A stretch of DNA of 30,117 bases from a virus, in IMG/VR virus record IMGVR_UViG_3300047300_000536, positions 1-30,117 of that record. One strand, written 5' to 3'. Below, one piece after another: positions 3,601 to 29,150 of this stretch. The position numbers were made by a program, and so were the translations under genes. Below the pieces are notes generated by a model. It ran no database searches. It was not told the origin of the DNA and saw only the letters and a program-made list of their open reading frames with translations. Each line of letters begins with the position of its first letter. The stretch's first letter is position 1.

Positions 3601-4613
3601 CACCTGCATCTATTCCTATCAAAACTACAGAGCTGACTTCTCAGTTCCCAGACGCCCCAGCTTTCGGTGCATCTGGAATTTATTACAAAGGTTATCTAGC
3701 CGTAGGACCAACTACTAACTCTCAGCCTATCTTCTGGGCCGTCAGATATAGAATGTATAGCACTGCGGCTACTACCTTTACCAATGGTGCAATTGACAGC
3801 TTATCTGCAAATGGTGCAGGATTTTTCCGTGTTTATGACATGGGTAAGGCTATTCCAACTGCTGTACTTCGTAAAACTACTACACATGGTGATAACTTTG
3901 TCACTACAGCAACTGGTAGCTACCCATCAACAACTACAAACACAAACACAAACGTAGCAACTTATGTCTACACGTCCCATACCGCGACAGCAATTATTAA
4001 CTCGAGCACTTCTGCTTATTTTGATGGATATGGCATTGGTGATGCTGGAACTACAGATGTTTATTCAAACCAGCAAAGCCTCTACCAAGGAAACGCTGGA
4101 ACATCTTCTGGAACTAAAAAATCTCAGGTGGCTTTTGAGGCCATCAATAGCACTAGCCTAGGGGTCCCAAATACTGCCGTAGCCTGTACTATTGCTGGAA
4201 TCAATAGCGGCTACGTTGCGGGAACAATAAATGCTGGATACAAGGTCACTAAGGTCGAACTATATCTACGAAACCGACACTCTTATCAGGGGTCTGGTCT
4301 TACTGCCTACTGGGGGTACTCTTCAGACACTAACGCTAGAAACTCGTCGGCACCCCCTGGACCTTATGCTTCCGCTGGTCAAGCCAGTGCATCATTCACT
4401 AAAGGTCAAGGAAAATACACGGCATTGAGCACTGCAGCACAAAACTACTTTGCAGGTGGGCAGATTAGAAGTGTTTTGTTAGGACTTACAAATGCAACTT
4501 CAAACACCTACTACAGCTCTCTAACCTACTATGGATACTTTGACGGTGACCTGCAAAGCGACCCACCAAAGCTGAGAGTTACCTACACCTACTACACGAG
4601 AGTATTGGCATAA
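627..4613 (+). CDS. Large tail fibre / receptor-binding protein (1,328 aa)
   Basis: The start is GTG at 627, overlapping the previous gene. The N-terminus is strongly basic (SRRRRSRKS), followed by a conserved-looking segment up to about residue 180. A long array of Thr/Ser/Val/Asn-rich beta modules comes next. Several modules share a pattern of the type 'LTNNLATITV..(Y)DGTFTI', resembling the Ig-like building blocks of phage fibres. The C-terminal part, from about residue 880, is aromatic and Asn/Thr-rich. It ends in a beta-sandwich-like segment (KVTKVELYLRN to PKLRVTYTY), the usual place for receptor binding. There is no peptidase or lyase motif. It probably forms the tail-tip fibre that contacts the host surface. 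Very few Cys and Lys residues fit an extracellular structural protein. The fibre class is well supported; its ligand cannot be read from sequence. Confidence 0.8.
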   Translation: MASRRRRSRKSLGSKLTYINQSVVQSAQTSVPTQLSRVIDDEAIVKGGITQEAITPQSIDARLFNPSAAMPTGEAGQRVPAPLTNRDYWGQVAAGDVELHLGGVHGTSLELEDILNVEATTAGLSLIPTADEPARIYLTGRLTIPPSRKIYAAWQANDDIEMKLIWWKQAPNYDIDSAITVDGLTKISLNSGGLHSFAVGDTIHITNTNSLFDGTHIVVKVSGEDVYYVDTLDITSSVVTAATYTQSTRQVTLTIPTGVGPFAGDGYILFTGTDGASNFEGVYKVASHDSTLNTVSFVVDQDVATVLSISLTANARATFYAIDTAASQESQIEFFPPGKANEDIYYYVNLQNREVWSADKYSHRLLSYSITNNVASVVSVTPTYMMPGDTVQIIAPTEVEAARFNSYSYTVTAVSADTRTVSFALTSANVASTNFSTQSVIKTQNQFLPDSYAVYVEIPAGSQPVLLSSAKVFEVLGESTTEPTYSRVTRSSLTNNLATITVINSTGYNIDSQMVVTGLGAPYDGTFTIASAGASTVRGVEIIANGTAYIAVSNTAPFYAGSGNVSVTVTGTNTVADKTYTTISSVGSSLGITGYAVANGVITLSVNATPYGFVNGVVEISGIGTSEVANVLSNNTWVANTNTATTVTLFGSATYANSVPINASATGLSGTAKVRTLKIDGSGLSVVAPTATTAALAQTNTINYVISSANVAANTSPSINALAVGYTGVEHSELTPTGLTLYNEDGSVSVRLSSQDISTIAVGDSTQGQATISYIGEGSFASVASSGTLTVTGDTTLSSNVTIGGGLNVTGSFSVGEGTTGDISITGNIVSSSITAATVVSNNYTFFSPSASAAVNLIGTAFDGARYTTVSTTVARNVNAITTDHSYYSGDILDRIPRGIIYSVSFDGLDGNNYTPATNVITMAAGKFYAHPDRELLIAAGVASLRTVTASNVSIGLEVIISNSATNLFSPAGTFDIIYSTYIQSGTLGQHPPASIPIKTTELTSQFPDAPAFGASGIYYKGYLAVGPTTNSQPIFWAVRYRMYSTAATTFTNGAIDSLSANGAGFFRVYDMGKAIPTAVLRKTTTHGDNFVTTATGSYPSTTTNTNTNVATYVYTSHTATAIINSSTSAYFDGYGIGDAGTTDVYSNQQSLYQGNAGTSSGTKKSQVAFEAINSTSLGVPNTAVACTIAGINSGYVAGTINAGYKVTKVELYLRNRHSYQGSGLTAYWGYSSDTNARNSSAPPGPYASAGQASASFTKGQGKYTALSTAAQNYFAGGQIRSVLLGLTNATSNTYYSSLTYYGYFDGDLQSDPPKLRVTYTYYTRVLA

Positions 4614-12348: not shown

Positions 12349-13359
12349 ATGTCTAAGATTCTTTTGACGGGTATGACTGCCCCTCAGGTATCATCAAGAG
12401 CTCACGACCGCTCGCTGAGCTTTGCTGGTGTATTGAAAGATGTGCTCACAAATATGGGGCATGATGTCACGTGGGGTGACCCAGATTTAGTGTCCTTCGA
12501 GCCTGTCTTGAAGGAGTTTGATGCTGTCCTGGTTGGGCTAGCCCCAATCACAAGCCTGAGTGCTAATCGAGCTTATGGTGCTCTTAGTGTTGTCGACACT
12601 CTATGGTCGTCTGGCAAGCTTTTTATGTTCATTGACTCTCCCTCAGTGTCTCAAATTGGGACCTCGCTAAGGGCCACTATCAATTCCCCCGACAACTTAA
12701 CTAAAGATTTCTTCTCGTATCGTAAACACTACGAGGAAGTTAAGAGCAGTCCAGCCTATCAGGCAATAATGCTGCGTGCTATCTCTAAGCTTCTCAACGA
12801 AGACTGGCCCGTGACGTTCTACTCTTCACTACCTTGGAGTAGTGATGACGATGTTTATGCGTCTTTGCCAGAAAGTGTCGGAGACTGCCTAATCCCACTG
12901 AACATTGACTCTTTTTTGGCGTCTACGGACTCTCCAGATAGAGATGTAGTTGCCAACAAGTGGTCATATGATATTCCTACCCCTCACTGGACTAAAAAGC
13001 AGCTAAAAATGGTCGCACTGCCTGGGTCACCAATGAAGGTAAATAAAGGTGCTACAGATAGCGATGTTTATATGCAAATTCAACGCTCGGTGGGGTCTCT
13101 AATCTCTCCAGACAAGCGTCAAGGTACTTGGTGGACCTATCGTTACATTCAGTCTCTCAATGCGGGGGTTCCAGTGGTGACAGAGTGGAAAGAAAGCTTT
13201 GTTTTAGGCCCGTCTTGGTCGGTTCTAGCTGCTTCAGTAGAAGAGATGACGTCTCAAGAGCGTTCTGCTCTAGCTGCTTCTCAGAAAGAAGCCTATTTAT
13301 CTTCGATACCTAGTAAAATTGAAGTAACAAATATCCTCAATGAAACAATGAATCTATAG
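12349..13359 (+). CDS. Possible GT-B-fold glycosyltransferase-like protein
   Basis: This protein has 336 residues with AAAGGAAAA just before the ATG. It opens with a Rossmann-type strand-loop (KILLTGMTAPQ) and HDVTWGDPDLVSFEP. A second mononucleotide-binding-like half ends with GTWWTYRYIQSLNAG and VPVVTEW, a pattern seen near the donor-binding end of GT-B glycosyltransferases. There is no DxD motif, as expected for GT-B. Its position just after the replication genes could suggest DNA-base or protein glycosylation, but no base hydroxymethylase is visible here. It could also be a Rossmann protein of another function. Confidence in a coding gene is high; confidence in the activity is moderate to low. 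Confidence 0.5.
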   Translation: MSKILLTGMTAPQVSSRAHDRSLSFAGVLKDVLTNMGHDVTWGDPDLVSFEPVLKEFDAVLVGLAPITSLSANRAYGALSVVDTLWSSGKLFMFIDSPSVSQIGTSLRATINSPDNLTKDFFSYRKHYEEVKSSPAYQAIMLRAISKLLNEDWPVTFYSSLPWSSDDDVYASLPESVGDCLIPLNIDSFLASTDSPDRDVVANKWSYDIPTPHWTKKQLKMVALPGSPMKVNKGATDSDVYMQIQRSVGSLISPDKRQGTWWTYRYIQSLNAGVPVVTEWKESFVLGPSWSVLAASVEEMTSQERSALAASQKEAYLSSIPSKIEVTNILNETMNL

Positions 13360-13367
13360 GAGAACTA

Positions 13368-13784
13368 ATGGAAGTCAACTATGAATGGGTGAAACAACAG
13401 TTCACCGAAGCAAAGGTGCGTGTTGGGGTCGGAAAGGCTGTCCTCAAGATGCTAGAGACCTGGGAGTCACTAGACCTTACTCCAGAACAGGCACGTCAGA
13501 GTCTAGAAATCCTTTCTAGCGTTGGTTTGGGTCACTCACTCGTTGTTGTCAACAAAGATGAAGTCTGGGTTGATGTTAGGCGTGGTGACATTAAAGTAGG
13601 TGACCAGGTTAGGGTTATGCATGACGCATTCGACGGCGATATGGGAAGCCTTCACAATGGTCGACGTGGTGTAGTAGGGGCAATTCGCTCTGGTGACATC
13701 ATTGTCAAAATGACTGATGGAAAGTCGCCTACCCTAGAAGGGGTCCACTATTCTCCAGACAAGCTTCAGAAGAGGATTCGATAG
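13368..13784 (+). CDS. Small protein of unknown function with SH3/KOW-like C-terminal half
   Basis: This 138-residue protein starts at ATG 13368 behind AGGAG. Residues 1-55 are helical (LTPEQARQSLEILSSVGLG). The remainder has a beta pattern (GDIKVGDQVRVMHDAF, GRRGVVGAIRSGDIIVKM), as in small SH3-like or KOW barrels that bind nucleic acid or protein. The next gene begins in its stop codon (TAGTG). The family is not recognised. Confidence 0.55.
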   Translation: MEVNYEWVKQQFTEAKVRVGVGKAVLKMLETWESLDLTPEQARQSLEILSSVGLGHSLVVVNKDEVWVDVRRGDIKVGDQVRVMHDAFDGDMGSLHNGRRGVVGAIRSGDIIVKMTDGKSPTLEGVHYSPDKLQKRIR

Positions 13785-14026: not shown

Positions 14027-14053
14027 TTGACAAATGTTCTTAGGTTGTATAAC
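14027..14053 (+). promoter_or_regulatory. Promoter for the pyrimidine-dimer-glycosylase-like gene
   Basis: A perfect TTGACA (14027-14032) and TATAAC (14048-14053) are separated by a short 15-base spacer. The leader carries GACGAAAGGA before the ATG at 14082, and the same string occurs before the helicase gene. The sequence TGTATAACCT at this -10 recurs exactly at 24363-24372. The short spacer may mean that an activator is needed. Confidence 0.6.
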
Positions 14054-14081
14054 CTAATCTCAATGACGAAAGGACGCAGCA

Positions 14082-14570: not shown

Positions 14571-14596
14571 CTTTTAACCAGATTTTCTATCATAAA

Positions 14597-14616
14597 CCTG
14601 TATAATTATATACAGG
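14597..14616 (+). promoter_or_regulatory. Perfect inverted repeat overlapping a consensus -10 element
   Basis: CCTGTATA (14597-14604) and TATACAGG (14609-14616) form a perfect 8-bp dyad with a 4-base ATTA centre. A TATAAT hexamer at 14601-14606 lies inside the dyad, and the next gene's ATG begins at 14620. No convincing -35 is present. Such an arrangement is typical of a repressor operator that blocks the promoter; the mRNA would have a leader of only about 7 bases. Confidence 0.6.
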
Positions 14617-14619
14617 TGC

Positions 14620-14976
14620 ATGATGGCAAAAGATTCAAGAATAGGCGAAACGCTCTGGAGTGAGTGGTCTGGTGACCACTTCTCAAGTGGCGGTTCGTCT
14701 ATTTTCTTTTTTACCGAAGACCACATTACTTTGGAGCATGACGTTATTGTGCGAGCACTGGCTTCCGCACTCCAAAGAGATGGTGTTGTAGACAGTCTTG
14801 GTCAGGGCTATCGAGCTGCCGAATCTGCATCCGTCCAGCATATCTATGCTGGCAAAGTTGACGGAGAGCTAGATGAATTAACACCATGCTCTGAGAATGG
14901 TGAAACTTTTTATGGAGACACCGTAGATGACATCGTCCCAATTACCTTGGTGGAGATTTATGTGGAAGCCTACTAA
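14620..14976 (+). CDS. Small protein of unknown function, first gene of WhiB transcript
   Basis: This 118-residue protein begins with two adjacent ATG codons (14620 and 14623). No proper ribosome-binding site is present at the usual distance, while the -10 is only 14 bases upstream, so near-leaderless translation is likely. The protein is acidic and soluble-looking (WSGDHFSSGGSSIFFF, DVIVRALASALQRDGVVDSL). It overlaps the WhiB gene by 17 bases and should be co-transcribed with it. No family is recognised; a regulatory partner role is only a guess from context. Confidence 0.55.
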   Translation: MMAKDSRIGETLWSEWSGDHFSSGGSSIFFFTEDHITLEHDVIVRALASALQRDGVVDSLGQGYRAAESASVQHIYAGKVDGELDELTPCSENGETFYGDTVDDIVPITLVEIYVEAY

Positions 14977-15439
14977 CCTCGAGTGGCAGTTAAATGCCGA
15001 ATGCGGTAAAAAAGAGTATGAAGAGTTTGCAGACTTTTTCTTTTCCAACGACCCTCAGGAGAGATATGCTGCAAAGAACTTATGCTTTCAATGCCCTGTA
15101 CGTAAGGACTGCGTCAAATGGGCACTTGAATCTAAAGAGATTTGGGGAGTCTGGGGTGGACGAGATGAAAATGAAATACGTCGAACCCTATCCGTAAATG
15201 CAGACGGCGAAGAGATTAGGCGTGACCGATTCCCTCAGTGCCCATACTGTACGGCTAGAACTAGTCGGCTTAAAACTCATGTTGTAGATAACCCAGATGG
15301 TGGTCGCTGGACAACAATGAGACTAGTTGAGTGTCTAGATTGTGGATTCCTTTGGCGTAGTAGAACCAGTGCAAACGCTGTCAATGCCTACCACCATGCT
15401 CGACAAGAAAAGGTCGAAAGACGAGCTAAAAAGAAATAG
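14960..15439 (+). CDS. WhiB-family Fe-S regulator with an extra C-terminal zinc ribbon
   Basis: I place the start at ATG 14960, where GGTGGAG precedes by 4 bases, rather than an in-frame ATG at 14927 that would overlap the upstream gene more deeply. The 159-residue protein has the four WhiB cysteines C15, C42, C45 and C51 for a 4Fe-4S cluster, and the GVWGG turn at 63-67. It is longer than usual: after a basic linker there are CPYC (94-97) and CLDC (125-128), a classic zinc-ribbon spacing, then a basic tail. WhiB proteins act with the host SigA to redirect transcription, so this phage protein probably retunes host or phage promoters. The gene ends 14 bases inside the convergent GT2 gene. WhiB identity is secure; zinc binding is inferred. 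Confidence 0.92.
   Translation: MWKPTNLEWQLNAECGKKEYEEFADFFFSNDPQERYAAKNLCFQCPVRKDCVKWALESKEIWGVWGGRDENEIRRTLSVNADGEEIRRDRFPQCPYCTARTSRLKTHVVDNPDGGRWTTMRLVECLDCGFLWRSRTSANAVNAYHHARQEKVERRAKKK

Positions 15440-25562: not shown

Positions 25563-29150
<3,588 letters not shown>

Follow-up and report, generated by a model that had tools for sequence, protein, structure and literature searches.

In WhiB7 (=WblC), a WhiB core contacts region 4 of sigma-A, and a C-terminal AT-hook beside the sigma-bound core sets promoter choice (PMC3905903); according to a review of the Wbl proteins, no DNA-binding motif other than this AT-hook is recognised among them (PMC6282962). Binding of WhiB3 to sigma-A region 4 is abolished by mutating F31, F32 or W76, or W15 and W17 together, and the residues that WhiB1 needs for this binding are F17, F18, W60 and W3 (PMC10245118). 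In Streptomyces, WhiB depends on a second protein, WhiA (PMC6282962). Phages also encode WhiB cores, as exemplified by TM4 gp49 and by the proteins surveyed in PMC8612146, a text that makes no mention of zinc and whose one use of 'C-terminal' concerns Lsr2. Here we consider a phage WhiB of another kind, encoded in a stretch of 30,117 nucleotides of viral DNA (IMG/VR record IMGVR_UViG_3300047300_000536; the whole stretch is referred to below as the window). The WhiB scaffold itself is known; what appears to be new is that it is joined to a C-terminal module of a type not seen before and linked to a partner gene. In the full text of open-licence papers we found no description of a phage WhiB that is extended at its C-terminus or bears a zinc ribbon or zinc finger.

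The gene (14960..15439, + strand), recognised from its open reading frame, motifs, PF02467 match and an alignment of homologues, encodes 159 amino acids. A longer in-frame reading from ATG 14927 was rejected, because the 11 residues that it would add lack conservation in relatives; the 14960 start coincides with that of close relatives, whose proteins open with M-W-[KE]-P, and is preceded by a Shine–Dalgarno-like GGTGGAG (14949..14955, + strand). The product consists of a complete WhiB core, then a four-cysteine site (CPYC-x27-CLDC), then a basic helix and tail. The initial annotation had described an intact core with a GVWGG turn, CPYC at residues 94–97, CLDC at residues 125–128 and a basic tail, all of which we find to be so; its remark that the protein is about twice the usual length of a phage WhiB is true in relation to the 79-aa second WhiB of phage DSL-LC01, and less so in relation to longer ones such as that of MooMoo (133 aa). 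All eight cysteines, comprising C15 and C42-x2-C45-x5-C51 in the core and the four distal ones on which a second metal site would depend, are invariant in 40/40 distinct full homologues, as are L104, W132, R135 and N139. Nonsynonymous divergence is about 0.08–0.12 and synonymous sites are saturated or nearly so, a pattern which, together with the 40/40 conservation, led us to reject chance or decay as the source of the cysteines.

The WhiB core occupies residues 9–75 (14984..15184, + strand; E 5.9e-19, above the curated cut-off), and a comparison of PF02467 with the window protein gave 61.5 bits over the same residues (cut-off 23.6; E 1.1e-16). The match to the core in PHROGs is also significant. 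In a sequence search of the PDB, matches were confined to the WhiB half (8dy7 and 8dy9 chains annotated WhiB; WhiB7, WhiB1, WhiB3 and WhiB4), and they include sigma-bound WhiB structures. The counterparts of the sigma-contact residues of WhiB3 and WhiB1 are W9, F27, F28 and W65, and all are kept in the window protein; among 38 homologues (the 40 minus two divergent Arthrobacter phage forms), W9 and F28 are each present in 38, F27 in 34 and W65 in 32. An invariant Trp precedes the first cysteine, unlike the situation in WhiB7, which lacks it (PMC10245118). The WhiB half would carry a [4Fe-4S] cluster and, with these residues present, most likely docks on sigma-A region 4. In five Microbacterium phage homologues (L057, L058, L060–L062), the GVWGG turn (residues 63–67 of the window protein) is replaced by GTRGG or GTRAG, a change from W to R that removes the Trp reported to be indispensable for binding to sigma-A region 4, and the zinc ribbon is kept. 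This suggests that docking differs in these phages, and sigma docking may not be universal among WhiB-ribbon proteins.

Like WhiB7, the protein has a basic module C-terminal to its WhiB core; unlike that of WhiB7, the module combines a helix with a zinc ribbon of four cysteines, and there is no AT-hook (RGRP-type) motif in residues 76–159. The ribbon (CPYC-x27-CLDC ... F-x-W; residues 94–132, 15239..15355, + strand) is modelled with pLDDT mostly >90. After CLDC comes F-x-W-R-S-R-T-S-A-N-A-V-N-A-Y and then the basic tail, and the model's secondary structure places a basic C-terminal helix at residues 135–158 (RTSANAVNAY...; 15362..15433, + strand). The CxxC-x27-CxxC spacing is the same in 38/38 homologues, and the ribbon is on average slightly more conserved than the core (mean pairwise identity 59.9% vs 55.7%; ribbon ahead in 530 of 703 pairs). 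The geometry of the cysteines points to zinc binding. Residues 85–140, the region in which disorder would have told against a folded domain, are predicted to be ordered: an AlphaFold2 model of residues 83–159 (input 24 sequences from the window and viral contigs; the model contains no metal) has a mean pLDDT of 87 and no segment <50, with strands at 104–110, 119–125 and 131–133 and a helix at 135–158, i.e. a three-stranded ribbon and a long helix. The charge of the ribbon domain is about +8 in the window protein, and ranges from –1 to +12 across homologues. In Arthrobacter phages Atuin and Mimi (L059, L063) the ribbon is shortened, and both the GGRW loop and the C-terminal helix are missing.

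To what family might the ribbon belong? No family came above its curated cut-off, or gave a significant E-value, in Pfam, PHROGs, NCBIfam, PDB sequences or the folds of the PDB and BFVD. The Pfam family most often matched is PF14354 (Lar), in 18/31 members (best 1.8e-4), the window ribbon itself scoring 16.6 bits against a cut-off of 28.6; other zinc-ribbon families lie behind it (PF01096 in 11/31 members, best 0.11), and the PHROGs matches are to families of unknown function and weak Lar-like ones. Foldseek against the PDB gave Thermococcus RPB9 (1qyp; probability 0.99, rmsd 2.0 over 43 columns), but with E 0.12, and the profile match to 1qyp is weak (E 0.86). Among viral fold models (BFVD), the top match is annotated as restriction alleviation (probability 0.99, E 0.024), and further matches include many TFIIS ribbons of giant viruses and iridoviruses (probability 0.9–1.0, E 0.02–0.3). 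The module seems to resemble RPB9/TFIIS ribbons in its CxxC...CxxC motif, its three strands and its fold, but differs from them in giving no E-value match, in its x27 spacing and in its hairpin tip, which is P-x-GGRW in place of the acidic D-E pair found at the tip in TFIIS. With phage Lar ribbons it shares a ribbon followed by a helix and a weak profile and fold similarity, but it falls below the Pfam cut-off and is fused to WhiB. We read it as a zinc ribbon of general C4 type that ends in a helix, near to both groups and assignable to neither. Zinc ribbons bind proteins as frequently as they bind nucleic acids.

The homologues came from an IMG/VR scan with the protein (54 related loci) and from a phage collection (44 records). 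A scan of viral contigs with the ribbon motif only gave 491 confirmed relatives, and in 77/77 loci newly fetched from 80 of these the ribbon is in frame with a WhiB core. Two non-exhaustive pattern scans of 84,980 prokaryote species, each represented by a single genome, gave no ribbon relatives, and plasmid matches, among those listed, have the WhiB half only. The WhiB-ribbon fusion is a phage family, restricted to phages in the collections searched. Named carriers are DSL-LC01 and the Microbacterium phages Pumpernickel, Cece, A3Wally, Big4 and Zooman, with the shortened form in Atuin and Mimi; in all of them the protein is annotated as WhiB only. Two other phage WhiBs that we inspected lack this ribbon: that of BritBrat has no tail, and MooMoo gp58 (L065) ends in a cysteine-containing tail of another kind (CxxC ... 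YCSxxC). Phage WhiBs may thus have acquired metal-site tails on more than one occasion.

DSL-LC01 was assembled from a lake-water metagenome, and its predicted host belongs to the Actinomycetia (PMC10611076). It contains a third, unannotated WhiB-domain open reading frame (L226, 344–826; OQ999401 near 12,815–13,018). On the – strand of the window (25563–29138) is a 1191-aa open reading frame with nine collagen triple-helix stretches, which may be compared with the collagen-like genes of DSL-LC01.

The gene immediately upstream (14620..14976, + strand) shares 17 nt with the start of the WhiB gene and encodes an acidic protein of 117–118 aa (pI 4.2), a companion that WhiB7 does not have. Aligned relatives have pI values of 4.0–4.7 throughout. 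The structure model of this partner is fair (pLDDT 83.5), and it gave no family, PDB or fold match; a PHROG sigma-factor match (E 0.05) was discarded as chance. A scan with the partner only gave 471 relatives, and among 79 loci examined, 71 have a WhiB-ribbon gene directly downstream and the remaining eight end at a contig edge, so that 71/71 evaluable partner genes stand directly before a WhiB-ribbon gene. In the reverse direction, a partner is visible by motif at 128/131 WhiB-ribbon loci. The three others are L017, which in fact has a partner; L116, whose ribbon match begins so near the locus end (210 bases) that a partner would not fit upstream; and L071 (WhiB-ribbon gene 3755–4330), where no partner was found at the locus or elsewhere in its 64 kb contig. 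The WhiB-ribbon gene of L071 directly follows a gene resembling that at 13368–13784 of the window. In the named Microbacterium and Arthrobacter phages a small gene occupies the partner position, only that of Pumpernickel giving a BLAST match, and a weak one (E 0.5); the putative homology of these genes rests on position and a loose resemblance. The pair is flanked by DNA glycosylase and glycosyltransferase genes in DSL-LC01 and the window, by RecA/DnaQ genes in Microbacterium phages and by nucleotidyl transferase/helicase genes in Arthrobacter phages, and stays together while its neighbours vary by phage group. The partner is part of the WhiB-ribbon module. It had been suggested in the initial annotation that WhiB and ribbon together make a self-sufficient transcription switch. 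Of this reading, the fusion of a WhiB core to a conserved and confidently folded ribbon with a basic helix is borne out, as is the retention of the sigma-A region 4 residues, but self-sufficiency does not fit the near-constant presence of the acidic partner, which makes a two-protein module more likely.

The upstream gene had also been thought to lie under a dyad-covered promoter, and a perfect dyad with 9-bp arms, ACCTGTATA-ATTA-TATACAGGT (14596..14617), does span the –10 hexamer of the operon, TATAAT (14601..14606, + strand), for which the best –35 match is just 2 of 6. With three mismatches allowed, this dyad occurs once in the window. The idea that related operons share it as their operator finds no support: the dyads of relatives differ or are absent, so that it belongs to this phage rather than to the module. 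Most homologues have a –10 of 5–6/6 shortly before the partner gene, but this –10 was picked for its match, and in the informative comparison, that of the –35, they are no better than shuffled sequence (2.71 vs 2.77 matches of 6). In this lack of a –35 the operon promoter differs from that of whiB7. By contrast, the promoter of the 14082 gene of the window (pyrimidine dimer glycosylase) has TTGACA and TATAAC, 17 nt apart; a second dyad, TTAGGTT-GTAT-AACCTAA (14040–14057), overlaps this TATAAC. In six loci (L045, L046, L048, L049, L052 and L053), TATACT or TATAAT lies exactly 6 nt before the partner ATG, which suggests a leaderless operon mRNA.

A further arrangement is seen just upstream of the partner start (3664) in L002, where TCTAAT-N14-ATTAGA surrounds TATAAT; this 6+14+6 geometry is that of early promoters in DSL-LC01. 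Between about 23,600 and 43,320 of that genome (L223, OQ999401) there are about 25 near-identical promoters, GATTCTAAAGATGTTATAATAGAATC, with no obvious –35 and with an extended –10 (TGTTATAAT) enclosed by 6-bp dyad arms that are separated by 14 nt. The genes downstream of them are small ones and one for a 79-aa WhiB, and the set has the look of a phage regulon whose operator covers the –10. These promoters are not assigned as targets of the WhiB-ribbon protein; the motif is absent from the WhiB-ribbon operon there.

How might the module act? With a probability of roughly one half, we regard the protein as a phage transcription factor bound to sigma-A. The WhiB domain, with its [4Fe-4S] cluster, would dock on region 4 of the host principal sigma factor; the ribbon and basic helix would then reach promoter DNA or some adjoining part of RNA polymerase, taking the role that the AT-hook has in WhiB7; and host RNA polymerase would be drawn to phage promoters, probably including that of the operon itself, with its good –10 and no –35. 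The acidic partner would serve as a cofactor or a brake, and activation seems likelier than repression. Neither a sigma factor nor an RNA polymerase is annotated among the genes of DSL-LC01, a complete relative, which makes the host polymerase the likely target. The folds nearest to the ribbon, of RPB9/TFIIS type, belong to transcription proteins, which favours this reading; against it weigh the variable charge of the ribbon domain among homologues, the unconserved sequence of the window dyad, the loss of the turn Trp in the five Microbacterium phage homologues and the frequent binding of proteins by zinc ribbons.

The pairing with the partner permits another explanation, which we consider possible though doubtful: that the ribbon mainly docks the acidic protein and leaves promoter choice or activity to be set by that partner, either within one complex having a division of labour like that of WhiA and WhiB, or as an anti-regulator to the WhiB-ribbon regulator. 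The overlap of the genes, the 71/71 partners directly upstream, the pairing of nearly all WhiB-ribbon genes and its persistence among differing neighbours are all in keeping with this, as are the opposite charges of partner (about –16) and ribbon domain and the precedent of Streptomyces WhiB, another WhiB that appears to need a second protein. The partner differs from WhiA in being short (110–118 aa), acidic and encoded in the same operon, and has no detectable relation to it. The WhiB-ribbon gene of L071 lacks a partner in its 64 kb contig, and the partner may instead bind the WhiB half or sigma. It is unlikely that the protein serves host takeover in the manner of TM4 WhiB, displacing or repressing host WhiB2-type regulators and blocking division, with the ribbon as a secondary protein-binding or stabilising extension; repression of host whiB2 has been reported for the TM4 protein (Rybniker 2010, as cited in PMC10611076), and the same role has been proposed for the DSL-LC01 WhiBs (PMC10611076), but that proposal is based on the WhiB domain only, and the idea leaves unexplained both the partner gene and a ribbon as conserved as the core. 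A Lar-like restriction-alleviation module, shielding phage DNA from host restriction, is most improbable, for although PF14354 and the top viral fold match point to it, all these matches are weak, 'Lar' is itself mostly a transferred annotation, and fusion to WhiB points to transcription.

To return to the sigma-A-bound transcription factor, many large actinobacterial viruses carry a WhiB with a permanently fused zinc-binding domain, nearly always with an acidic partner, in what looks like a tool for steering host RNA polymerase. A more specific form of this, which we think rather unlikely, is that partner and WhiB-ribbon protein together capture the host sigma-A holoenzyme and give it a new promoter preference, contact between ribbon and DNA replacing –35 recognition; if true, this would be a functional equivalent, built on WhiB, of phage sigma appropriation as carried out by AsiA-MotA for T4. 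A WhiB that carries a zinc ribbon of its own and has a near-obligatory acidic partner would be a testable candidate for such appropriation. Since the AT-hook is the only DNA-binding motif so far recognised among Wbl proteins (PMC6282962), a second type of module on the WhiB scaffold would widen the view of how the family chooses promoters.
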